Assembly: GCF_013112225.1 (NCBI RefSeq)
Contig: NZ_JABFHI010000005.1
Span: 186,001 to 250,000, forward strand
Reading direction: 5' to 3'
Origin: Vreelandella azerica
GTDB lineage: Bacteria > Pseudomonadota > Gammaproteobacteria > Pseudomonadales > Halomonadaceae
DNA: 64,000 nucleotides
Shown: one piece after another, positions 13,056 through 26,572 of the stretch
Position numbering within the stretch: position 1 is the first letter of the stretch
Layout: every line of letters starts with the position of its first letter
Position numbers and translations under genes: made by a program
Notes under the pieces: model-generated
What the model was told of the DNA's origin: nothing
The model's database searches: none
Seen by the model: the letters and a program-made list of their open reading frames with translations, nothing else

Positions 13056-14042
13056 ATGCGCGTTCATACTCTTTCGTTTAAGCAGCCCTTCTTTCTGCGT
13101 TCGCTGCTCAGCGTTGCCATTACCGGTGCTTTCAGCGTTGTTGCCCTTCAGGCAAGTGCTGATATGTCGTCACGTTACATAGATAGTGACGGCGATCTGG
13201 TGGCAGATATTCCCGCCGACGAATCCCAGTGGGTCGATCCTGATACGTTGATTTTTGCTTACACTCCTGTGGAAGACCCAGCCATATATGCCGATGTGTG
13301 GGCCGATTTCCTTGACCATCTGGCGGATGCAACTGGCAAGCGGGTGCAGTTCTTCCCAGTGCAGTCTAACGCGGCTCAGCAGGAAGCGCTGCGCGCAGGC
13401 CGACTGCATGTGGCAGGTTTCAACACCGGCGGCGTGCCTGTGGCGGTCAACTGTGGCGGCTTCCGTCCGTTCACCATTATGGCAGCAGAAGATGGCAGCT
13501 TCGGGTATGAGATGGAAATCATTACCTACCCGGGCAGCGATATTGAAAGCGTTGAAGACATCCAGGGCAGCCAGCTAGCGTTTACGTCGCCTACTTCCAA
13601 CTCCGGTTTCCGCGCGCCTTCGGCGCTGTTGCGTTCCGAGTATGGTATGGAAGCTGACGAAGACTTTGAAACGGCGTTTTCCGGCTCTCACGACAACTCC
13701 ATTCTGGGCGTTGTCAACAAAGACTATGAAGCTGCTGCTGTTGCCAACTCCGTGCTCAACCGTATGCTGGCGCGAGACGTGATCGAGGAAAGTGATTACG
13801 TTTCTATCTTTACTTCCGAAACCTTCCCGACCACCGCTTACGGCACGGCGCACAATCTGACGCCCGAGCTTCAGGAGCAGATTCAGGAAGCCTTCTTCAG
13901 CTATGACTGGGAAGGCACGGCCCTGAAAGCCGAGTTCGCCAACTCCGGTGAAGCCCAGTTCATCCCGATCACTTACCAGCAACACTGGAATGTGATTCGC
14001 ACCATCGCCGATGCCAACGGCGTGACCTACGACTGCGATTAA
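13056..14042 (+). CDS. phnD: phosphonate/phosphite/phosphate ABC transporter, periplasmic binding protein
   Basis: A 328-residue PhnD-family binding protein. Residues 1-36 are a Sec signal peptide (basic start, hydrophobic core, ALQASA cleavage region). The mature protein has the family pattern IFAYTPVEDPAIYADVW, a GRLHVAGFNTGG binding-site segment, LAFTSPTSNSGF and SHDNSILGVVNKDYEAAAV. It captures oxidised or reduced phosphorus compounds in the periplasm and passes them to PhnE. AGGTGA lies 5 nt before the ATG. It is the first gene of phnDCEE and follows the Pho boxes. The actual ligand (phosphonate, phosphite or phosphate) cannot be assigned from sequence. Confidence 0.9.
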   Translation: MRVHTLSFKQPFFLRSLLSVAITGAFSVVALQASADMSSRYIDSDGDLVADIPADESQWVDPDTLIFAYTPVEDPAIYADVWADFLDHLADATGKRVQFFPVQSNAAQQEALRAGRLHVAGFNTGGVPVAVNCGGFRPFTIMAAEDGSFGYEMEIITYPGSDIESVEDIQGSQLAFTSPTSNSGFRAPSALLRSEYGMEADEDFETAFSGSHDNSILGVVNKDYEAAAVANSVLNRMLARDVIEESDYVSIFTSETFPTTAYGTAHNLTPELQEQIQEAFFSYDWEGTALKAEFANSGEAQFIPITYQQHWNVIRTIADANGVTYDCD

Positions 14043-14131
14043 ATCGCTGATTCAACAAGATGTTAACGGCCAGGAGGCTTGCCTTCTGGCCGTGTTGCTG
14101 TATCAGGCAAGCTAAAAACGGGATTGAGAAC

Positions 14132-14971
14132 ATGCTGAAGTTAAGCGGCCTGGGTAAGCGCTACCCGACCGGGGACCGCGCCCTGACCAATATTGAACTG
14201 ACCCTGCCCAAAGGCCAGGTGATGGCCCTGATTGGCCCTTCTGGCGCGGGTAAAAGTACACTGATTCGCTGCGTGAATCGTCTGGTAGAGCCAACCGAAG
14301 GCAGTGTGACGCTGGAGGGCGTCGAACTGACCCGGCTTTCCGGCCAAAAGCTGCGCCAGGCGCGGCGTTCTATGGGCATGATATTTCAGGAGTATGCGTT
14401 GGTTGACCGCTTGACGGTGATGGAAAACGTGCTTTCCGGTCAGTTGGGCTATGTGGGCTTCTGGCGCAGCTTTCTACGCCGTTATCCGCAATCGGCTGTC
14501 GTGGAAGCTTTTCGCCTGCTCGAGCGGGTTGGCCTTCCACATGCGCTGGATAAACGCGCGGATGCGCTTTCCGGCGGGCAGCGCCAGCGGGTGGGTATTG
14601 CCCGAGCATTGCTACAAAGCCCTAAGCTGCTGCTGGTGGATGAGCCGACCGCCAGCCTGGATCCGAAAACCTCCCGCCAGATCATGCGCTTGATTCGCGA
14701 GTTATGTGCAGAGCGCGAGCTTGCCGCCATTATCAATATCCATGATGTGGCCCTGGCACAGCAGTTTGCTGACCGCATTGTTGGCCTGCGCGCCGGTGAG
14801 ATTGTCTTTGATGGCCCGCCCGGTGAGCTTACCAGCGACATTCTGACCACCATCTACGGTGAGGAAGACTGGGATACAACGCCCGAGCCAGAAGATAATT
14901 CGGTTGATGAACGGGATGACCCAACACCGCCGACGCCAATGGCCAGGGTTGCCGCAGGAGGTGCGCGGTGA
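14132..14971 (+). CDS. phnC: phosphonate ABC transporter ATP-binding protein
   Basis: The 279-residue ABC ATPase has Walker [10 protein letters not shown] (about 35-43), a Q-loop ([14 protein letters not shown]), the signature [15 protein letters not shown] and Walker [13 protein letters not shown]. It energises import through the two PhnE permeases. I start it at the ATG at 14132, where the conserved [11 protein letters not shown] begins; an upstream in-frame start at 14060 would add 24 residues of no recognisable sequence. The C-terminal ~30 residues are an acidic and Pro-rich tail beyond the usual domain. The stop overlaps phnE by 4 bp. Confidence 0.92.
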
Positions 14972-15804
14972 AGCTAACCGAAGAAGCACTCAGCGAGCAG
15001 CGCCAGCAAGACGCTCTAGCAGGGCGGTGGCGCCGGCTGCCTTTGATTCAGTCCCCTCTCCTGCGCCTGACTCTGTTGGTCGGACTGGTGACCTATCTTA
15101 TCCTGGCGCTGAGCAGCGTCGAGGTTAACTGGGCCAGAGTTGCCGAAGGGGCCGGGCGCGGGCTGGAGTTTCTAGCTGCCTTTACCCGACCCGACTTTAT
15201 CAGCCGCTGGGACGATATCTGGGCAGGCCTGCTGGAAAGCCTGACCATGACGGTGACATCCACCGTGATTGGTGTGGCGCTTGCCGTGCCTGTCGGGCTG
15301 GGGGCGGCACGCAATATTGCCCCAATGCCGGTCTACTGGGTATGCCGTGGGATTATCGCCGTCTCGCGCACTTTTCAGGAAGTGATTATTGCCATCCTGT
15401 TTGTGGTGATGTTTGGCTTTGGCCCCTTTGCAGGGATGATTACCCTGGCGTTTGCCACCATTGGTTTCATGGCCAAGCTGTTGGCAGAAGATATTGAAGA
15501 CCTCGACGAGCGCCAGGTGGAAGCCGTACGGGCCACAGGCGCTGGCTGGTGGCAAACCCTGAACCACGCCGTACAGCCTCAGGTCATGCCGCGTCTGATC
15601 GGGCTTTCTATGTATCGTTTGGATATCAACTTCCGCGAATCGGCCGTCATCGGGATTGTCGGTGCGGGCGGCATTGGCGCGACCCTGAACACCTCGATCA
15701 ACCGCTACGAATACGATACTTCCGCCGCGGTGCTGCTGATCATTATTGCCATCGTATTGCTGTCTGAATACAGCTCAAGCTTTGTGCGGCGCTGGACGCA
15801 GTAG
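14968..15804 (+). CDS. phnE: phosphonate ABC transporter permease
   Basis: A 278-residue inner-membrane permease with about six helices and the PhnE coupling-helix region [40 protein letters not shown] marks the first core helix and [17 protein letters not shown] the last third. It is coupled to phnC by a 4-bp overlap and pairs with the second permease gene 34 bp downstream to form the heterodimeric channel. Confidence 0.9.
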
Positions 15805-15838
15805 CCTGCCTTCAGCCATTTAAGTCAAGGAACTCACC

Positions 15839-16653
15839 ATGCCTGTTTCCACTTCTCCCCAGGGGCAGCCGCAGTGGCGCCTGCGAACCACCAAAGCACA
15901 ATGGCTTGGCTACCTGGCCTGGCTGGCGGGCATCAGCCTGTTTCTATTGTGCTGGAAAGTCATCTCCGACAACACCATGTGGGTATTTGTCGAAGATGCC
16001 GGACGCCAGGGTACAGACCTGATCAGCCGTATGCTGCCGCCTGAATGGACTTATGCCCATCAACTCTGGCTGCCCATGTGGGATACCCTCAATATTGCCA
16101 CTCTGGGGACGGCGCTGGGAATCATGATGGCCTTTCCCGTGGCGTTTCTCGCTGCCCGCAACACCACGCCGCATCCTCTGATTCGCAGCCTGGCACTGAC
16201 AATTATTGTTTCGTCGCGCTCCATCAATTCCCTGATCTGGGCCATGCTGCTGGTGACGATTCTGGGGCCAGGGGTGCTGGCAGGGATTATTGCCATAGCG
16301 CTGCGCTCGATTGGTTTTGTAGGCAAACTGCTCTATGAGGCGATTGAGGAGATCCACCCGACGCCGGTGGAAGCCATTGCGGCTACCGGCGCCAGCCGCA
16401 TGCAGGTGATGAGCTATGGCGTGCTGCCCCAGGTGTTGCCTGCCTTTGCCGGTATTAGCGTCTACCGCTGGGATATCAACATTCGTGAATCGACGGTGCT
16501 AGGCCTGGTGGGAGCGGGGGTATTGGTCTGCAGCTAAATGCCTCCATCAACAGCCTGGCCTGGGATCAGGTGAGCGTCATCTTTGTGATGATTTTTGCCA
16601 CTGTGCTAGTTTCGGAATGGATCTCAGCCAAGGTTCGCCACGCCATCATCTAA
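15839..16653 (+). CDS. phnE: second phosphonate ABC transporter permease (frameshifted)
   Basis: A paralogue of the preceding permease with the same coupling region (EAIAATGASRMQVMSYGVLPQ) and NIRESTVLGLVGAG. The frame is lost at the G5 run at 16516-16520; one extra G gives GAGGIGLQLNASINSLAWDQ and a normal end at TAA 16651-16653, a 271-residue protein. A one-base sequencing error is the simplest reading. No phosphonatase, C-P lyase or phosphite dehydrogenase gene follows, so catabolism must be encoded elsewhere. Confidence 0.85.
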
Positions 16654-16682
16654 CGGCACTTCCTCGTCTAAATCTGATGCCT

Positions 16683-16710
16683 ATCATGAGCTAGCGACAT
16701 AGCTCATGAT
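16683..16710 (+). terminator. hairpin after phnE, weak terminator candidate
   Basis: An 11-bp perfect inverted repeat (ATCATGAGCTA ... TAGCTCATGAT) with a 6-nt loop lies 30 bp past the phn operon. There is no T-run after it, so it is a poor intrinsic terminator and could instead be a protein site or an mRNA-stabilising stem. Confidence 0.4.
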
Positions 16711-17405
16711 GTCATCCCCCTCAAATGCCAATAAAGTTGAGAGGCTGGGCTTTCAGAGCACCCTGACTGATGCCAAGGAGGCGACTGAAGATGGTCTTGA
16801 AATTCAGATTTCGTCTGTCTGAAGGCAGGATAAATAGTTTAATTACCGTTTAACATAAATTGCCGCACATGATGCCTCAGACATTTTTAAGGTAAGTTGT
16901 TCAAAAAAATCCCTGTTTTCCAGTGAATTCCACTAAAAATAACGGTTTCGGTTATAAATTTGCTGCAAAAAGTTAAAAAAATAATGTTTATGCCTGTGCT
17001 GGCTTTTTCGCATCTGTGGTGATTTTGCTGCGCTGTACAGGCAAGCTTCATTACTGTTAATTTAATACTTGTGTATTTTGTTTGGTGTGTTTATAAGTGC
17101 ATTCAGGCTCAAGCGAATGATCAGGCATCTTCCAATGACGACATGAAAACATGGTGTTGTAAGTTATCTAGAATGGATGTTTTCATGTAAAACAATGAGC
17201 ATTGTTAAAGCATGATGCGATCTGTCTAACTCACAAAATTAAACTTATTTTTTAAGTTGTTGTCTAGTAGTGCTTGCACTTAATTATGTTTTTAGCTAAA
17301 AATTTATGGGTACTTTCTATTAAAAAAATAACTATAGTGTCGGCTATCGGCTTTTATGTGTGACTTTAAAGGTTTTGTATTTTTCAATTATCGAGGGGCA
17401 TGTTA
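16711..17405. other. long AT-rich intergenic region upstream of the peptidase/ATP-grasp/ectC operon
   Basis: About 700 bp without a convincing gene, much more AT-rich than the operons on either side. It holds a 12-bp perfect inverted repeat (17141-17188) and, near 17332, a CTATAGT that could be a -10 element; I could not identify a matching -35, which would fit a stationary-phase or stress sigma factor but is weak evidence. The length suggests complex regulation or an unannotated small RNA. Confidence 0.45.
17141..17188. repeat. 12-bp perfect inverted repeat, 24-bp spacer
   Basis: ACATGAAAACAT at 17141-17152 pairs exactly with ATGTTTTCATGT at 17177-17188. No T-run follows on either strand, so it does not look like a terminator. 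Its position ~220 bp before the operon start makes it a possible operator or an RNA stem. Confidence 0.5.
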
Positions 17406-18368
17406 ATGCAGGCATTTTCAAACCCGGTAGGCTACGGAACGCTATGGTTCCACAACCTCTTGACCGCTGAAGGTACGCCAGTTGCGTATGATCCCCAGGC
17501 TCGGGCTTTTCTGCCGACACCTCCATTTTGTGCCAACCGGGATGTGATTGGCTGTAATTGGATTGCGCCTGAACAGGGCGCTTTCTGTCGCTCATGTGCG
17601 ATGACCGCATTGGCCCCTGACCTGGAAATTCCCGATGTTATTCCCAATTGGGCCGAAACCGAAGCGGCCAAGCGCTGGGTGATTGATAACCTGGGCCGCT
17701 GGCACTGGTTCAGGCCAGAAGATCCGGGTACACGCCCTGTTTTTCACATGCTTGCCGATGGTTATACGCTTGCGCCGATGGGGCACGGTGAGGGTGTGGT
17801 CACCATTAGCGTATCTGAAGCTGACCCTGTGGTACGCGTGACGCGTAAGGAAGCACTGAATGAGCCTTACAGAACCATGATAGGGCACATGCGCCATGAG
17901 ATTGCCCACATGCTGTGGTGGCGTCTCAGCCTGCGTGAGGATTTCCTGGTAGCTTTCCGTGAGATGTTTGGTGATGAGCGCGCTGACTATGGCGCTGCGC
18001 TTGAAAAGCATTATGAGCAAGGACCACCTCAAGACTGGGAGCTTTTCTACCTGACATCCTACGCGTCTGCACCCCCATGAAGACTGGGCGGAAACCGCCG
18101 CACACCTTTGCACTTGACCGATATCACCGACAGCTTTATTGCCACTGGGCTTTTAACGCCCGAAATGCCGAGCCACCGCTGGGACCCTTATGCAGAGCCT
18201 GATACCCAGGTGCTGGTTAATGTCGCTGCTAACCTGGTGATGCGGGTCAACCACGTCAACCGCTCCATGGGGCTGTCGGATATCTATCCCTTTGTGCTCT
18301 CCGAGGCGGCTCACCGCAAGCTGGCCTTTGTTCATGACTGGCTGCGTCGTGGTGCTCAAGGGCGTTAA
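17406..18368 (+). CDS. putative zinc-binding metallopeptidase (Peptidase_Mx-like), frameshifted
   Basis: The corrected ~320-residue protein follows the 'putative zinc-binding metallo-peptidase' family: a cysteine cluster (FCANRDVIGCNW and FCRSCAMT), EAAKRWVIDNL, GHGEGVVTISVSEADP, an HEIAHMLWW stretch equivalent to the HExxH metal site, FGDERADYGAALEKHY and the terminal HDWLRR region. The first zinc-ribbon cysteine pairs usual at the N-terminus of this family are absent (FSNPVGYG instead of a C-x2-C motif). I start at ATG 17406 because GAGGGG is 7-8 nt upstream; ATG 17400 is too close. Two indels split it, at the C5 run 18072-18076 and the T3 before 18108. It is first in an operon with ATP-grasp and ectC genes; proteolysis is not demonstrated. 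Confidence 0.7.
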
Positions 18369-18428
18369 TTAAAGCCCTTTTATGAGCTGACGACGATTTT
18401 ATAAGTATAAATTTCTGGAGAATAATCA

Positions 18429-19751
18429 ATGTCGACTATGTCTGAATCCAAAATGTCTCAAGACAAAATGTCTCAAGAAGTTCTGTCCTGGCGCGATCCG
18501 GAAATGGATTCCGTCAAAGGTACCGAAACACCTAAAGATCCCAATAAAGGCTATATCGCCCTGCTGGGCTGGAGCATCAATGCGATCAAGGCGGCTCAGA
18601 AATTTGATCGCCGCTATGTTGTGGTTGCGCCAGAATGGGCGACCGATTTTTGTGCGGCTAACAAGATACCGTTTATTGCCTGGGACTTTGTGCGTATTAA
18701 CGACCGCTCAATGGAGATTGCCGAAAGACTGAAGGCAGAGGGCGTGGATGTTGCCATTCCATTATTTGAAGAAACCGTGGAATGGTCCGGTGCGATTAAC
18801 TCCGTGTTGCTGGATAACCCGCGCATGTTTGGGCAATCGATCCTGTTTCGCGATAAGGCATTGATGAAGCGCCGTGCCCAGCTGGGCGGCATCCGCGTCG
18901 GGATTTTCGAAGAAGCTCACGAAAAAGAAGATATCATTCGCTTTATGAAGCGCGTCAACCAGACGCTGCTGAAGCTTGATGGCGACGTGGATGATCCGAT
19001 TCATGTCAAAGCCTTTGATAAGGCAGGCTGTCTTGGCCACCGTATGATCCGTACGGTAGAAGAAATTGATAATATCCCCGAAGAAGAATACCCCTTGCTG
19101 ATGGAGAGCCACCTCGACGGTTGGGAGTTCGCCGTGGAGGCATGGATCCACGATGGCAAGATCCAGTTTCTGAATATTTCCGAATACGTCACGCTTGGCT
19201 ATTCGGTATTTGTGCCTGCCACCGAAGAGCTTGAAAGCTGGCGCCACCTGATTACCAAGCAGATTGAGCTGTTGATCAAGACTTTTGATATTCAGTTCGG
19301 GCTGATTCACCCTGAATACTTTGTTACCGCCGATGGTGAAATGTACTTTGGTGAGGTGGCTTATCGTCCGCCGGGCTTCAAGGCGTTTGAACTGATTGAG
19401 CGTGCTTACGGGTTCAATGCTTATCAGGCGTCTATGCTGGTATTTGATCCGAAGAGCACAAAAGAGGAAGTGGCTGCCTTTTTCCCACGCGAAGTGGTGG
19501 ATGCCAAAGGTTACGCAGGCTGCTTTGGCGTATATCCGAAACGCCGTGTGGTCAGCAAGCTGGAAATGCCTAAAGAGTGTATTGAGCATCCGTATTTCGA
19601 GTCGCACGAATTAACCGCGCCTGCCGAAGAAACAGTGCCCGATCGCTCAGCATTTGGCACCCATTGGGGGCTGGTATTTTTCTTTGGTGATGACCCCATC
19701 AAGATGCGCGATCTACTGAAGACTCAGGAAGACCTGGACTTTTACGTTTAA
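18429..19751 (+). CDS. ATP-grasp family protein, carboxylate-amine ligase candidate
   Basis: The 440-residue protein has an N-terminal domain with [16 protein letters not shown] and YVVVAPEWA (a Rossmann-like pre-ATP-grasp part), VKAFDKAG at 193-200, [16 protein letters not shown] at 224-239 (base- and phosphate-contacting part) and HPEYF...[10 protein letters not shown] at 294-316, where the E and nearby polar residues would bind Mg-ATP. ATP-grasp ligases activate a carboxylate as acylphosphate and join it to an amine or thiol. A GGAG site lies 9 nt before the ATG. It is 60 bp after the metallopeptidase and 67 bp before ectC, all one strand. The substrate is unknown; a product then cyclised by the EctC enzyme is my inference. 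Confidence 0.82.
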
Positions 19752-19818
19752 CGCTTTTGCATCAGGACAGGTGGCGTTGAGTGAGCGCCACCATTACAAC
19801 TATATAAAGGACAACATC

Positions 19819-20207
19819 ATGATCGTTCGTAATATTGAAGAAGCGCGTCAAACAGAGCGTCTGGTAAAGGCCGAAGACGGTAACTGGGACAGTACACGTC
19901 TGGTACTGGCTGCTGATGGTGGAAATTTCTCCTTCCACATAACGCGCATTTATGCAGGAACCGAAACCCATATCCACTATAAGCACCACTTCGAATCTGT
20001 GTACTGCATTGAAGGAGCGAAGTGGAAACACTGGCGGATGGCAAGGTCTGGCCTATCAAGCCAGGTGATATCTATATTCTGGATAAACACGACGACCATC
20101 TGCTGCGCGCTTCCAAAACCATGCATCTAGCCTGCGTGTTTACGCCGCCGATCACGGGAACCGAAGTTCACCGCGAAGACGGTTCTTACGCACCCGCAGA
20201 AGACTGA
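19819..20207 (+). CDS. ectC: ectoine synthase, solitary (frameshifted)
   Basis: The protein matches EctC throughout: [57 protein letters not shown], then in a second frame [34 protein letters not shown] and [14 protein letters not shown]. EctC is a cupin that closes N-gamma-acetyl-diaminobutyrate to ectoine. The frame breaks near 20014-20019, where the usual EGEGEVETL is short by a few bases. The ATG at 19819 has TAAAGG 8 nt upstream. ectA and ectB are not beside it; instead it follows an ATP-grasp gene. It is either a second, solitary EctC with another substrate or a moved copy. A strong hairpin follows. Confidence 0.88.
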
Positions 20208-20220
20208 TTTGCAGTAACGT

Positions 20221-20256
20221 TAGACAACCCGCTGATATTTATCAGCGGGTTGTCTA
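20221..20256. terminator. strong bidirectional hairpin terminator
   Basis: A perfect 16-bp stem (20221-20236 with 20241-20256) with an ATTT loop separates ectC from the convergent kinase gene, whose stop codon lies in the right arm. Short T-rich sequence follows on the plus strand. It would stop transcripts from both sides. Confidence 0.8.
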
Positions 20257-21757
20257 TTTCTGGGTCGTTAAGGGTTCAGTGTAGATCGGCAGGGAAAACC
20301 GGAAACAGCTGCCGTGGCCGTCGCCTTGAGAATCGACGTCTATATGGCCACTGTGATGTTCAACAATGCGTTTGCACACAGCCAGGCCAATGCCTGTGCC
20401 ATCAAACCGGCTGCGTGGCTGTAGGCGTGAAAATACTCGAAACAGGCGGTTCTGCTGGTCAGGGGCAATGCCTATGCCGTTGTCCTTGATCGTGACATGC
20501 CAGCAATCGTATGACTGATGACCCGACATAATCACCCTGGGCGTTGTGTTTTCGTCCACGTATTTAAGGGCATTGTACAGGTTCTGCAGCAGGCGCACCA
20601 GTTCATCATCGCGGCTGACATACACCTCGGGCCAGTCACCGCGGACCTCAATGTGTCCCCCGTCTCTTTTAGTAGTGGGCCAAGGTAGGCGAGCACTTCA
20701 TCGACCACGTCACGGCTATCCACCCAGGCCATGGGGGATGTTTTACGGCCTACCCGTGAATAGTTGAGAATGCCGAGAATCATCGCATCCATGCGTTCGG
20801 CACCTTCGCGGGCAAAGCCAATCATTTCTTTGGCATCACGGCTCAGGTCGTTGCCCAGCTCCTGAGTCAGCAGTTGCAGGTAGCTGTTGACCATGCGCAG
20901 CGGCTGGCGCAGGTCGTGGGAAACCGCATAGGCAAAGTGCTCAAGTTCTTCATTGGAGCGGGTCAGCTCCAGCTGGGTTTCCTTGAGCGTGTGAATATCC
21001 AGATGCACGCCAATCAGTCGAGTAGGGCTATCCTGAGCATCACGCTCTACGATTTGACCACGCCCCTGAACCCATCGGTAGCCCTGGATCGTCTGATAAC
21101 GAAATTCGATAATAAACTCATCACCCGCCTCAAGCTGGCTATGTACTGCGTGGCTGCAGCGCTCAAGGTCATCCGGATGCAGGCGCGCCTGCCAGTCAGC
21201 AAAGGTCAATGGAGTATCAGACGGTGTCAGCCCCAGCATCCGGTAGCAATGTGCATCCCATATGATCTCGTCACGCTGCGGGTACCAGTCCCAGATGCCA
21301 AAGCCGGAGGCTTGCTGAGCCAGGGAGTAGCGTGCCTCGTTTTCTTCGAGTTCCTTCTGGGCCGTGACTCTCCGCGTCACATCAATCCCTACCCCTGAAA
21401 GTAAAGGAGATCACCGGCATCATTAAAAAAGCAGTATTGATCCACTCGACCCAACGCGGTTGGCCGTCGGCGCTTGTTGCCTGATTGCAAATACGGTGGC
21501 AAGGGGCGTCCGGCGTGAACTTCGGGTATAGCTCGATCCATTTATGATGCTCATCGCACGGGCAGGCATCCAGCCAGCGTTGGCCGACCATGGCCTCAGG
21601 TGGTGGTGCCAAAAAAGGTCGCCATCGGGCGGTTGGCAAACACCAGAGTGGTATCCGGCAGAAAACGGTTGAGCATAAAGGGGTGGTGCTCAGCGAGTGC
21701 CTGATAGTCCACCTGCTGGGTGTCTGGGATCATAGTGTCTTGCCCGGTGTGGTTCAT
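20254..21757 (-). CDS. PAS-containing sensor histidine kinase, HK-C (frameshifted)
   Basis: Starting at ATG 21757, which overlaps the upstream receiver gene's stop, the corrected ~500-residue protein has two PAS domains (LNRFLPDTTLVFANRPMATF in the first; FGIWDWYPQRDE and IDVTRRVTAQKELEE framing the second), a HisKA box [17 protein letters not shown] with the phospho-accepting His, and a HATPase domain with DNGIGIAPDQQNRLFRVF and FDGTGIGLAVCKRIVE. No membrane segment is seen, so it is probably cytoplasmic. Frames change near 21600, at a T6/G4 pair near 21390-21430 and at a G5 near 20660; each is repaired by a one-base change at a homopolymer. It is last in the seven-gene signalling operon. 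Confidence 0.8.
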
Positions 21758-22227
21758 TGGGGACGTTTGACCAGGGTCAGCCAGTAGTCTTCAACGTTCT
21801 GTATCGCCTGCAGAAACTGCACAAGGTCGACGGGTTTGGTCACAAAGCCGGCACAGCCAAGATTATAGGTATCGACAATATCGGATTCTGCTTCCGAGGT
21901 GGTGAGAACAATCGCCGGAATCCGCTTGAGGTCTTCGTCCTGTTTAAGGTGCTGCAGCAGGGTCTTGCCATCCATGCGTGGCATATTAAGATCCAGCAGG
22001 ATGATATCCGGACGAGGCGCATCCTGGTAGGGGGCCTGTTGCCGCAGAAACGCCAGGGCCTCAACACCATCGCCGACATCGCACAGTTGGACCAGCAGCC
22101 GACTCTTCTTGAAGGCCATGCGGGTCAAATGGACGTCAGCAGGTTCGTCTTCCACCAACAGCACCACAAAGTCATTCACAGTGTCTTCCGGTTGTGGGGA
22201 GATGGATGGGTTACAGGGCGTATTCAA
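21754..22227 (-). CDS. single-domain response regulator, REC-2
   Basis: A 157-residue receiver-only protein: VVLLVEDEPADVHLTRMAF (acidic pocket), DIILLDLNMPRMDG with the phospho-accepting Asp, IVLTTSEAESD (Thr switch) and FVTKPVDL (Lys). This LVEDEPAD-type group, like RcpA-type partners of PAS or phytochrome kinases, has no output domain and relays phosphate or acts by protein contact. It starts 4 bp after the HK-B stop and overlaps HK-C by 4 bp, so it probably serves these kinases. Confidence 0.9.
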   Translation of the reverse strand: MNTPCNPSISPQPEDTVNDFVVLLVEDEPADVHLTRMAFKKSRLLVQLCDVGDGVEALAFLRQQAPYQDAPRPDIILLDLNMPRMDGKTLLQHLKQDEDLKRIPAIVLTTSEAESDIVDTYNLGCAGFVTKPVDLVQFLQAIQNVEDYWLTLVKRPQ

Positions 22228-22230
22228 GGG

Positions 22231-23612
22231 TCACCTCGCGAGGGGTAAATCAAACAAGACGGCCGTGCCGCCATCGATGCCATCTTGTATGTCGAGTTGG
22301 CTGTCCAGATTGCGTAACGCTTTCACCACCAGCGCCAGGCCCATGCCGGTGCCCGGGTAGCGCTCATTATGAGGGACCAGGCGCGTAAACATCTCAAGTA
22401 CCTGGGGGCGGTATTCCGGGCTGATCCCCATGCCGTTATCGTCTATCCTGAACCTGACGTTGTCGCCAATGGTGACCGCTGAGAGGCGCACCTGAAGCGG
22501 CTTGTCTGGGCGGCGATACTGCCAGGCATTGTGCAACAGCACATGGAAAATCATCCTGAGTTGGCGCGCATCGGCCTTGATGTCAGGCATTGGTGTCATG
22601 ATATTTAGAGTGCCGCTGTGTTTCAGCGGCGCCAAGGTGGGCTCGGCGCAGACGTCTTCAATCAAGCCTGCAATATCAATGGTTTCGGGTTTAAGCGTCA
22701 TTTCCAGGCTGAGATAACGCTGTATATCATTCACCAGCGCCCTGAGCTGACGGGCCTGATGATCAATAAAGCCAACGGCTGTCCGGGTGCTTTCCGCCTC
22801 CAGGGTGACGGTGTTCTGGTGTTGTTGAGATGGTGAGACTGTTGTTGAGACTGTTGATGAAGATTGTTGGGTGTTGCTCAGAGAGCTGCTGGAGATAGCT
22901 GCTGGGCAAAACTGACCAGCCGACGGCTGGGTTCCTGGAAGTGATGGGCCATTACCTGGCTCAACCTTTCCAGCTCCCGGTTACGAAACGATAGCTCTTT
23001 GATCAGACGTTTATTTTCTCGTTGCGCACGACGCAAGCGTAAGAGGAGAGCCACCAGGAGCGCAATGATACCTAACTGAACCGTAGTACCTATGACCGCT
23101 ATCCAGAAAGTACGTTGGCGAGCGGCCTGCAGCTCTGCGGTTTGCAGGTCAATCTGCTCCTCCACGCGCTGAATATAGTGACGCTCGGCGGAAGCCTCAA
23201 AGTCGCTGGTGTCATAAAGGGATGAAATCAGTACCTCTCGCCCATCGATCTCGAAGGGGTCGGTATAGATGCCCATGACCTTGATGCTGCCATCCGCCAG
23301 GCGATGACGAAAATACAGATGGTTGCGTTCGGCTTCGGCAGCGCGGCGAATCTCACTATTAATCTGTGCAGAGTTCAACATGTTGATCTTATTGATATGC
23401 ATGCCTTCCAGTTGCTCAAACCCGTAGAAGGTTTTAGCCGCCGGGTTGGCACGCTCGATAATGCCGGTCTCGACATCAATCATCCACATGGGGGTGGAGT
23501 GCTGGTTAAAAAACGCGTCGAAATCGGGCATGGCCCAACTGCTACCGGCCGCCAGCATGGTCAGTACCAAGGTGAGTGATTGACAAAACCGCCTATATAC
23601 GCGCATTACCAA
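22231..23612 (-). CDS. sensor histidine kinase with periplasmic PAS domain, HK-B (frameshifted)
   Basis: Residues 1-28 form a signal peptide or first helix, followed by a PAS-like domain ([19 protein letters not shown], then [19 protein letters not shown]), a membrane helix [20 protein letters not shown], a coiled coil, a variant H-box [17 protein letters not shown] and, in a second frame, a HATPase domain ([43 protein letters not shown]). The order places the PAS domain in the periplasm. The frame changes near 22890. A Gln/Ser/Thr-rich low-complexity linker encoded at about 22810-22880 joins HisKA and the dimerisation remainder. It overlaps the end of the upstream kinase by 20 bp. Confidence 0.78.
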
Positions 23613-26572
23613 TCATCCCGGTTTGATGTCGTTTTGGCAGCGTCAACATAAACCGGCTGCCCTGGTTTTCACCCTCGGATTCCACCCAGATCTCACCGCC
23701 GTGGCGTTCCACAATCTTGCGGCAGATCGCCAGGCCAACCCCGGTGCCTTCATACTGCTCGCGGGTATGCAGACGTTGAAAGACCTTGAACAGGCGGTCT
23801 TGCTGTTTCGGAGAAATGCCAATGCCGTTATCGCTGACGGTCACCTTCCAGGTGTGAGCATCGGCGTCGGAGCGCGACGTGCAGGCCAATGACAACGCCC
23901 TGCCCAGGCATACGGTATTTTAACGCATTACCAATCAGGTTCTGGAAAAGCCGGGTCATTTCATCGGGGCTGGCGTAAACCTGTGGCCAGTCATCGTCAA
24001 TGTTGAAATGAGCACCGGCTTCCTGGATGGCAGGCGTCAGAAAATGCAGGGCTTCATCAATGGCCTCCTTGAGCGCCATCACCTGCATGGGCTGGCCCTT
24101 GCGGCCGACCCGGGAGTAATCCAGCAGGGAGAGCAGCATGCTGTCCATACGCTGAGCGCCATCACGCATATAATGCAGCATGGTACTGGTGTCTTCGTCC
24201 AGATCATCACCCAGCTGGCGTTCCAACAGCTGGGCATAGCTGGTGACCATACGCAGCGGCTGGCGCAGGTCGTGGGAGGCGGCATAGGCAAAATGCTCAA
24301 GCTCTTTATTGGAACGCTCCAGCGATGCACGATACTGTTCCAGTTCTTGCTGAGTGGCATATTCTTCCGTGATATCCCGAATATAACCGTGCCACAGGGT
24401 GCTACCGTCGTCGAGGCGTTCCGGGGTGGCAATACCTTCTACCCAGAGCTGATGGCCGCGCGGGTGATTGATGCGATAATGAACCCGCCAGGTCGTCAGC
24501 TGTTCAGCAGAACGCTGGATGGAATCGGCAATCCTTTGAATGTCATCTTTGTCGATGACCGCGAAAACCTGGCGCGCATCGTCGCGTACCGCTTCTGGTG
24601 TGAATCCATAAATTTCTTCAATGCCCTGGCTGGCATAAGGGAAGGCGCAGCGTCCATCCGGGTGTTGCCAGAACTGGTAAAGCATGCCGGGCAGTAGGGC
24701 GGCGTGCTGTCTCGTCTGCTCCATGGCCGCCTGGGCGCGGGCTTCGGCCTCTTTGCGGGGGTGATATCGCTGTGGGTGCCGGCCATCCACAGGGGCTTGC
24801 CGTCGTCGTCCCAGTCAACCACACGACCTCTGTCTTGCACCCAGATCCAGGTGCCATCGCGGTGACGCATGCGGACTTCCACATCATAGGCATCGCGTTT
24901 GCCGGCAAAGTGCTCGTCCAGCATGGCTTTGGAATAGGGCAGGTCATCCGGGTGGCATAACGCCATCCAGGTGTCGATAGAGGTCGGTGAAATCTCCTTC
25001 AGCTGATAGCCCACCATATCGGCCCAGCGCTCATTAAAGCGAGTTTCACCGGTCTGGACGTTCCATTCCCAGGTGCCAGCAGCGGTGCCCCACAGAATGT
25101 TTTTCAAGGCGTTGCGCTCGGCCTCAAGTTCAGCGTGATCCTTTTCCTGCTGAGTGATGTTATGCAGGGCGACCAGATAAGTGGGTGCGTGGTCGAGCCT
25201 ATCAACCAAGGCATCCTGGTTGAATTTGATCAGCTTGGCTTCGGCGGTAACTTTCTGTCCTTTAAAGTCAATAAGCTGCCAGATAAATGATTGAGGCTGG
25301 TCGTTGGCGCGCTCCATCAGTTCCTCGGCAAGTTTTTGTGGATAGGCTGCCATCCGCCTGGCAAGTAGGGGAAAGATCAAAAATGCCTTTACCGATCAGA
25401 TCCCGTTTGCTATCAGCCTGAAAAAGCTCAATTGCCGCCAGGTTGCTATCCGATACGAGGGTTGACCCGTCTTCGTTGACGTGCAATAGCAACTTGGCAC
25501 TGGGCGAATGATAAAAGAGGGCGTTGAAGCGCTGGAAAAGGCGTGAAGTCCGCAAATAGAGTATCAACAGCAGCAGGGTTGCCAACACGATGCCAACTGT
25601 CAGCCCAATCATCAGCCAGAGACCCTTGCCGTAGCGCTGTTTTAATTGCTGCCAAAGGGTCAAGTCTTCGGGCGCAAAGGGAGCAACGCCCAGAGCGCGG
25701 GCGGCCAGTTCCACTGGCAGATAATCCTGGGGCGGGTCAAAGGCGACAGACTGCTCCTCTTTGCCAGTACGCCGTTTAGTTGAAGCAGGGCATTACTGAC
25801 CCGGCGAATGTCTTCCATGGGTACATGAGGCATGGCCGCCAGGGCCCATTCCGGGTAAAGGCGGGTGGAGTGAACCAGCGGGAAATAAGGGTCTGCTGGG
25901 TGCGCTTCAATTACGGATAGCTGGCCCGGCTGCAGGCGCCCTTGGGCAAGCCAGTCTTCGACAATGCCACTGCGCACAAACCCTGCCTCAACGTCGCCAC
26001 TAAGCAGGGCGCTGATCACCGCATCGTGGCCACCCAGTTCGCGGTAATCGGCAAAGGTTTTTGAGTCAAACCCTTTCTGCTCGAGCTCATAGACCTGAGT
26101 CAGAAAGCCGCCCAGAAAAGCGTTTGCCGGGCACCCCGATGTCCGCCCCTTGCAGATCTTCCAGCCCCTTAAACGTTGAGCCTTCAGGTACCAGGATGAC
26201 ACCTGCCAGGGAGCTGACATAACGTCCACCCTGAATATGCTTAAGGGTCGCCAACGCACCGCTGACCGCATAGTCCTGACGCACCGCCAGAAAATGGCGC
26301 GGGTTAGTCAGAATGAAATCAACGCGTCCTTCGGCAATAGCGATATCAAAGGCCTCAAGCGAGAGAATCTCCATGCGGACGTCCTGGCCGGGCAAGGCCC
26401 ACTGCATGGCTTCGATCACAGGGGTAAAGCGCGCCTCTACGGTCGCGGGGTTACGGTAGGCAAAAACGCCCAAGGTGGTGGTTGGCATCGCCTGGGTAAC
26501 GGCTGGCAATATGAGCAGAACAAGCAGAACGAACCAGATCAACAGGGGCGGTGGATGAGACGGTGGACGCAT
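23593..26572 (-). CDS. sensor histidine kinase with PhnD-like periplasmic domain and multiple PAS domains (several frameshifts)
   Basis: Five consecutive frames give one ~990-residue protein. Order: signal segment; PhnD-family binding domain ([57 protein letters not shown]); membrane helix [20 protein letters not shown]; three PAS domains with PAC motifs; H-box [17 protein letters not shown]; HATPase [18 protein letters not shown] and [16 protein letters not shown]. Breaks are at A4 26116-26119, near 25755, a C4 near 25368, a C5 near 24765 and near 23880; each is mended by a one-base change. A phosphonate-, phosphite- or sulfonate-like ligand sensed in the periplasm is plausible from the domain family, but not proven. 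Confidence 0.78.

Follow-up and report, generated by a model that had tools for sequence, protein, structure and literature searches.

The function of solitary (orphan) EctC proteins, ectoine synthases encoded apart from ectA and ectB, has been called unresolved (PMC5924519, PMC6344544). In addition, EctC has been reported to convert glutamine to ADPC, a synthetic solute (PMC6344544), and although this is a side reaction and not a natural pathway, it shows that the enzyme can close the ring of another amide. Here we describe an extra ectC gene within a stretch of 64,000 nucleotides from Vreelandella azerica (positions 186,001 to 250,000 of contig NZ_JABFHI010000005.1, hereafter the window; G000:C16:186001-250000 in our labelling, in which G numbers denote the genomes compared and L numbers denote loci). 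The gene follows those of a Peptidase_Mx protein (PMX) and of an ATP-grasp protein. Like other solitary EctCs it is found outside ectABC with its catalytic residues kept; unlike them it belongs to a setting in which ATP-grasp, PMX and a further protein, called BIG below, recur, and the parts of PMC5924519 and PMC6344544 consulted name no such partner. The neighbourhood is real and unusual, but the three genes do not form a conserved operon. It is a testable lead on the solitary EctCs, as the recurring set of partners makes their role directly testable.

A parallel for the combination of a ligase and a peptidase is provided by the NAGGN osmolyte system, in which an ATP-grasp dipeptide ligase is found with a peptidase and an amidotransferase in a salt-response setting. 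The likeness lies in the joint presence of an ATP-grasp ligase and a metallopeptidase, whereas in the present case EctC stands in place of the amidotransferase. The NCBIfam library presumably holds the NAGGN synthetase and peptidase families, and neither turned up when the ATP-grasp and PMX proteins were compared with it (matches up to E 0.1). A literature search, made on listings and the openings of abstracts, gave no paper that pairs ectoine synthase with ATP-grasp; the two were co-mentioned, as ectC and ATP-grasp, in a cosmeceuticals review. The NAGGN phrase was absent from the ten papers listed for it.

The three genes of the window are the following:
17400-18368, + strand: PMX, a zinc metallopeptidase-like protein of the Peptidase_Mx family (PF15887), split into open reading frames (ORFs) 17400-18080 and 18108-18368
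18429-19751, + strand: ATP-grasp protein of 440 residues (copy A), recognised from its ORF and weak profile matches
19819-20207, + strand: extra ectC of the ectoine synthase family (PF06339/NF009806), with a frameshift near 20016

The sequence-only reading had described these genes as a cluster on one strand with gaps of 60 bp (PMX to ATP-grasp) and 67 bp (ATP-grasp to ectC), and the coordinates agree. Strand, families and gaps are as claimed, but the frameshifts in PMX (near 18075) and in ectC had been overlooked; neither protein is readable in a single frame.

EctC is encoded in the same gene run as ATP-grasp in seven genomes, namely that of the window, G011, G024 (counted once with L110), G316, G038 and the alphaproteobacteria Oceanibium sediminis (L123) and Roseisalinus antarcticus (L127). 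The genes occur in tandem, convergent and divergent order, with gaps of 67-652 bp except in G038. In the other six genomes the arrangements are (arrowheads give the direction of each gene; ATPg, ATP-grasp):
G011: <EctC <ATPg, gap 107 bp
G024: ATPg> <EctC, gap 128 bp
G316: BIG> ATPg> EctC>, gap 108 bp
Oceanibium L123: <BIG <ATPg EctC> PMX>, gap 652 bp
Roseisalinus L127: <ATPg EctC> PMX>, gap 385 bp
G038: ATPg> BIG> EctC>, with BIG between the two, 2.0 kb

More specifically, the ATP-grasp and BIG genes of G038 overlap and EctC begins 1 bp past BIG. At a further locus, Saccharospirillum L120, a broken-up ATP-grasp remnant adjoins EctC. In a tree of 36 EctC sequences (28 of the 80 loci with G011-type EctCs, see below, and eight others; the window ectC, which is of the Halomonas type, was not among them) the six ATP-grasp-linked EctCs do not form a single clade and require four changes, at least two of them forced by starred branches, with the reservation that the long branches of G038 and G316 leave positions unsure and that the bootstrap had not settled. 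The earlier proposal that ATP-grasp and EctC belong together thus gains from seven genomes, several orientations and EctCs of differing ancestry, and loses from the 35 of 41 copy-A loci that lack the partners in the flank examined and from the closest relative, G034, which has no ectC at this place.

The steadiest partner of ATP-grasp is BIG, which lies outside the window locus and was overlooked by the sequence-only reading. It is a protein of 680 residues (for example L037:4253-6295:-) with a helical N-terminal part and a C-terminal part that carries papain-like residues, and it has no Pfam or NCBIfam match near the cut-off. Of the 13 class-sample genomes with ATP-grasp, all but G344 (12 of 13) have BIG no more than 1.5 kb from an ATP-grasp gene; the distance is 31-405 bp in the measured loci and 1.4 kb in G316. 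The two genes adjoin each other in gammaproteobacteria, in G435, which belongs to another class, and in the alphaproteobacterium Oceanibium, and BIG was found in 11 of the 398 genomes of the phylum sample. Residues Q402, C408, H566 and N587 are invariant (23/23 sequences), and their order is what we take to be the motif of a papain-like cysteine peptidase. One BIG sequence whose reference failed to translate was excluded from the alignment. In the structure model (pLDDT 83.6, pTM 0.75; an earlier model from seven sequences was poor, with pLDDT 60.7, and was set aside) C408 is located just before helix 409-420. BIG resembles papain-like peptidases such as staphopain in its ordered Q, C, H and N and in a cysteine at the start of a helix, and differs from them in its large helical N-terminal part and in having no Pfam match near the cut-off. 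Foldseek comparisons gave no confident match; two staphopains were among the first six PDB entries (E 0.77 and 0.90), and papain-like viral proteins were found in rows 2 and 7 (E 0.22 and 0.55).

PMX is a less regular companion. It is part of the EctC/ATP-grasp run in two of the other six genomes (L123 and L127) and adjoins ATP-grasp without EctC in G034, G029 and G827, where the identical arrangement in the last two perhaps represents one event. These cases speak for PMX as a pathway member, as had been suggested, but the three genes are not kept together across the genus. In addition, a PMX relative (37%, PF15887 358 bits) is encoded 0.2 kb from EctC in Nitrincola L099, PMX lies 4.6 kb from EctC in L128, and a PMX remnant is present in G011. 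Membership of PMX in some other fixed operon was considered and rejected: outside the clade of the window, no neighbour family was found in more than three of the 11 PMX loci. The family assignment of the window copy is clear from both ORFs (PF15887, 159.9 and 58.3 bits); its orthologue in G034 is an unbroken protein of 323 residues (L036:5933-6901:-) that scores 266.8 bits, and the zinc motif reads HEIAH or HEISH in 7/7 aligned sequences, HEIAH in the window.

The ATP-grasp protein itself shows a distant similarity to known ligases. All eight aligned members match PF13535 at E up to 0.1, and the best PDB matches of the family profile are L-amino acid ligases, at weak E-values of 0.003 and 0.004. 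The resemblance to these ligases (BL00235, 3vot; 4wd3; ATP-grasp_4) extends over some 120 residues and includes an E-V-x-x-R-x-x-G stretch: E309-V-A-Y-R-P-P-G of the window protein aligns with E-V-G-A-R-I-G-G of BL00235 (3vot), and the glutamate of E-V-A-Y-R is presumably the metal-binding residue of the E strand. The match is weak, and the Pfam score stays below the gathering cut-off. Within the genus, 75 of the 82 genomes have an ATP-grasp match at E 1e-100. Copy A, 90-100% identical to the window protein, is present in 41 of the 82, counting the window and a partial copy in G031, and a second form, copy B (about 79% to the window), is followed by BIG in the copy-B loci that were read. In the class sample, ATP-grasp was found in 13 of 369 genomes. 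In eleven genus genomes copy A and the ectC locus share a contig and are some 36-44 kb apart (e.g. G003:C54, G005:C1, G016:C1).

The extra ectC resembles its family in profile score and in residues. Its N-terminal ORF scores 82.5 bits with PF06339 (cut-off 27 bits); the gene being split, the two pieces score 81.5 and 83.1 bits with NF009806, each below the 128-bit cut-off. When the listed metal- and substrate-binding residues of EctC (PMC6344544) were compared, W21, S23, R25, T40, Y52 and E57 proved to be kept in 36/36 sequences, and they are readable in the first piece of the window protein. The metal-binding Y and H sit one column off the published number in 36/36, and column 38 holds H instead of the published N in 36/36, including the copies borne by ectABC clusters. 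The neighbours of the gene are ATP-grasp and a histidine kinase, not ectA or ectB, which places it outside the canonical ectABC cluster. The two pieces are 94% and 87% identical to the other EctC of the genome, from which the gene differs by 62 synonymous and 12 non-synonymous changes over 127 codons (dN 0.042; dS saturated at 2.6; dN/dS about 0.016, where dN and dS are the non-synonymous and synonymous divergence). A recent duplication of the genome's own ectC was rejected: because the synonymous sites are saturated, the window ectC is not a recent copy of the other.

A comparison with related genomes indicates how the locus may have been assembled. In G017 the transporter, PMX and kinase genes are present and ATP-grasp is not between them; G034 has transporter, PMX, ATP-grasp and kinase without ectC, its ATP-grasp being 99% identical to that of the window. 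Only 26 bp separate the two window-matching blocks of G034 (ATP-grasp and histidine kinase), where the window has about 480 bp that hold ectC:
19751-20230, no strand: segment of about 480 bp carrying ectC, delimited by comparison with G034

The series thus runs from PMX alone (G017) through PMX and ATP-grasp (G034) to PMX, ATP-grasp and ectC (window). Stepwise gain would be a simpler reading of this series than stepwise loss, because most genus genomes with copy A carry it elsewhere.

The same genomes are peculiar with respect to the ordinary ectoine route. The source genome (G000; assembly of 3.42 Mb in 20 contigs, 89% complete) contains an ectA-ectC pair (G000:C20:56037-57074, L035:6038-7075) and so does G034 (L195:5124-6161). 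In both, the genes are 60 bp apart with no ectB between them, ectA is recognised by TIGR02406 (220 and 222 bits, respectively), and no ectB scores above the cut-off anywhere in G000 or G034. The description of a lone EctC lacking ectA and ectB, given by the sequence-only reading, therefore applies to the locus and not to the whole genome, in which a second ectC lies beside ectA. The separate ectABC cluster that it suggested looking for turned out to be this pair, and a role of the window EctC as sole synthase for a distant ectAB does not fit a genome with a separate ectC and no ectB. In the genus, ectB is above the cut-off in 75/82 genomes; it is lacking in G000, G034, G017, three genomes that are at most 74% complete, and G823 (partial match). 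Hence, among genomes more than 75% complete it is missing only in G000, G034 and G017, besides the partial match in G823, where EctC is present as two pieces only, beside the partial ectB. The PMX-locus genomes G000 and G034 thus keep ectA and ectC without ectB (in G017, only ectC was looked for). A replacement of EctB by another diaminobutyrate transaminase was considered as well; the three best of the four ectB-like matches in G000 score best as gamma-aminobutyrate (GABA), ArgD/AstC-type and PRK07482-type aminotransferases. With ectB missing, diaminobutyrate comes from elsewhere, or the ectA and ectC enzymes serve another substrate.

In order to see how common the association is, neighbours were labelled by tblastn with one query protein per family and two for EctC, by which distant partners would escape. 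A conserved operon of the three genes in the genus was rejected on this basis, and the earlier view of the three as one set largely fails with it: PMX, a PMX remnant or EctC accompanies copy A at six of its 41 loci, and in homologous genomes the genes are mostly separated. For 80 sequences closely related to the G011-type EctC (L098-L177, 77-96% identical to the G011 copy, many of them in Marinobacter), the flank holds an intact ATP-grasp gene in three cases, a remnant in one and PMX in four, six loci in all, so that these partners are missing beside most members of the set. The copy-A loci L218, L219, L226 and L233 are at contig ends, and the flanks are short at several of the 80 EctC loci; these counts could therefore miss a partner. 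According to the tblastn labels, ectA and ectB lie beside ten of the 80, ectA alone beside four and neither beside 66. In one of these loci (L098) EctC is located behind a DUF2868 gene and a DUF3482-GTPase gene. EctC matches are found in 80/82 genus genomes. In the class sample, EctC is above the cut-off in 13/13 ATP-grasp genomes versus 51/369 overall, for which the uncorrected chance is 1.6e-12, a value that ignores relatedness, shared habitat and descent.

The explanation that we tentatively prefer, with slightly less than even confidence, is that the window cluster represents, in a recent and local form, an uncharacterised metabolic module that occurs in bacteria making ectoine and is probably mobile by horizontal transfer. 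Elsewhere ATP-grasp and BIG would form the core of this module, with EctC and PMX as recurrent partners. ATP-grasp would use ATP to couple a carboxylate to the amino group of an amino acid, for instance diaminobutyrate, or would make a glutamine-like amide; ring closure of this amide by EctC would give a cyclic amidine (ectoine itself or a close relative); and the peptidase-like PMX and BIG would free building blocks from the amide product or turn it over. We infer this chemistry from the co-location of the genes, the conserved EctC residues, the weak ligase similarity and the peptidase motifs. A bolder version, which we hold to be unlikely, is a pathway spread horizontally among salt-tolerant bacteria, in which ATP-grasp would make an N-acyl- or aminoacyl-diaminobutyrate or a glutamine-type amide without EctA, EctC would cyclise it to a new ectoine-like amidine, and BIG and PMX would process or recycle the product, a share of the solitary EctCs working in such pathways. 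An amide other than the ectoine precursor is a chemically reasonable substrate, given the reported ring closure of glutamine to ADPC by EctC. If true, these proposals would add small cyclic solutes or metabolites of a new class and would give a first role to BIG and to this ATP-grasp, two families for neither of which our analysis found one. Several observations weigh against the module. No BIG lies beside copy A in the window, and the papain-like nature of BIG is read from its residue pattern, the Foldseek matches being weak. The window ATP-grasp scores 21.9 bits with PF13535, below the gathering score of 27 bits, and the protein is present in just one of the 12 genomes of G435's family. In 35 of the 41 genus copy-A loci the flank examined holds no PMX, EctC or BIG, and 74 of the 80 relatives of the G011-type EctC lack ATP-grasp and PMX in theirs. 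EctC is beside ATP-grasp in just two (the window and G316) of the 13 class-sample genomes that have ATP-grasp, and their co-occurrence in genomes may simply follow from both belonging to halophiles. Finally, G009 has three extra EctCs, two of them above the cut-off, none of which is near its ATP-grasp gene.

Alternatively, PMX, ATP-grasp, BIG and EctC may each be of use in high salt and travel together between halophiles on mobile DNA without a joint pathway, a view that we consider somewhat doubtful. It would agree with the transposase and integrase genes at L123 and L127, with the separation of the partners in most loci examined, with the absence of a fixed PMX neighbour outside the clade of the window, and with EctCs that are 93-96% identical to the G011 copy in Marinobacter, Nitrincola, Thiomicrospira, Halomonas and the alphaproteobacterium Oceanibium. 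Nevertheless, the sharing of an island would not readily account for genes that are near neighbours in seven EctC genomes, nor for the overlap of ATP-grasp and BIG and the 1-bp spacing of EctC in G038. Moreover, in all three genus genomes that have both copy A and an extra EctC (G000, G011 and G024), the extra EctC adjoins copy A; G009, G817 and G020 have no copy A, and their extra EctCs (a single one, below the cut-off, in each of the last two) are far from the ATP-grasp gene or on another contig. The extra EctCs of G009 are divergent (G009:C1:2807089, 85708 and 2581361). It is distinctly unlikely that the window gene is a spare ectoine synthase that makes ordinary ectoine with the EctA of the ectA-ectC locus, ATP-grasp lending only its promoter: its unchanged active-site residues, its similarity to the other EctC and the second ectC beside ectA would all suit this, but the known diaminobutyrate route is missing for want of ectB in G000 and G034, and the ATP-grasp link is found with other EctCs too.

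Ligase-peptidase pairings are known for ATP-grasp modifiers, and the vicinity of ATP-grasp to BIG, with its papain-like Q-C-H-N in 23/23 sequences, and at times to a zinc-peptidase-like protein would allow a system of protein or peptide modification in which ATP-grasp adds an amino acid, the peptidase-like proteins remove it and EctC is a bystander. We regard this as very improbable, as the profile finds L-amino acid ligases, not protein ligases, as its top PDB entries (though at E 0.003) and EctC recurs. Hardly credible, finally, is a relic or artefact, that is, a cluster decaying or misassembled with two of its three genes broken. The frameshifts in PMX and ectC and the remnants of ATP-grasp at L120 and of PMX at L089 point in that direction, but genes adjoining the cluster (window 13056-24730) are split as well while they are unbroken in G034, namely PhnE near 16510 and histidine kinase genes near 20670 and 23872. 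PMX is also unbroken there, and the excess of synonymous over non-synonymous changes in ectC is that of a gene kept functional. As BIG is also split elsewhere in the window's own assembly, the frameshifts are likely to be indel errors of sequencing.

With respect to mobility, the L123 cluster is flanked by transposase genes, one of the IS240 type and, on the opposite side at a distance of 3.3 kb, an rve one, and L127 has phage-type integrase and IstB genes alongside; these genes suggest that the clusters may be mobile. Carriage on plasmids was considered and rejected: among plasmid records, ATP-grasp and BIG have one each, a 1.8-Mb Halomonas replicon, and PMX relatives occur on 11 records.

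The window locus has a PhnD/PhnC/PhnE-type transporter 5' of PMX. Scans for sigma-70 promoters and consensus terminators gave no more than expected by chance (4 found vs 4.4 expected, and 5 vs 3.8), and the hairpin behind ectC is absent from the list of the consensus terminator scan. The 16-bp terminator that had been described as closing the gene row does exist as a hairpin, with arms of 17 nucleotides instead of 16, and separates ectC from the histidine kinase gene that follows in convergent orientation:
20221-20256, no strand: perfect inverted repeat, terminator-like, with 17-nt arms (20221-20237 and 20240-20256) and a 2-nt loop

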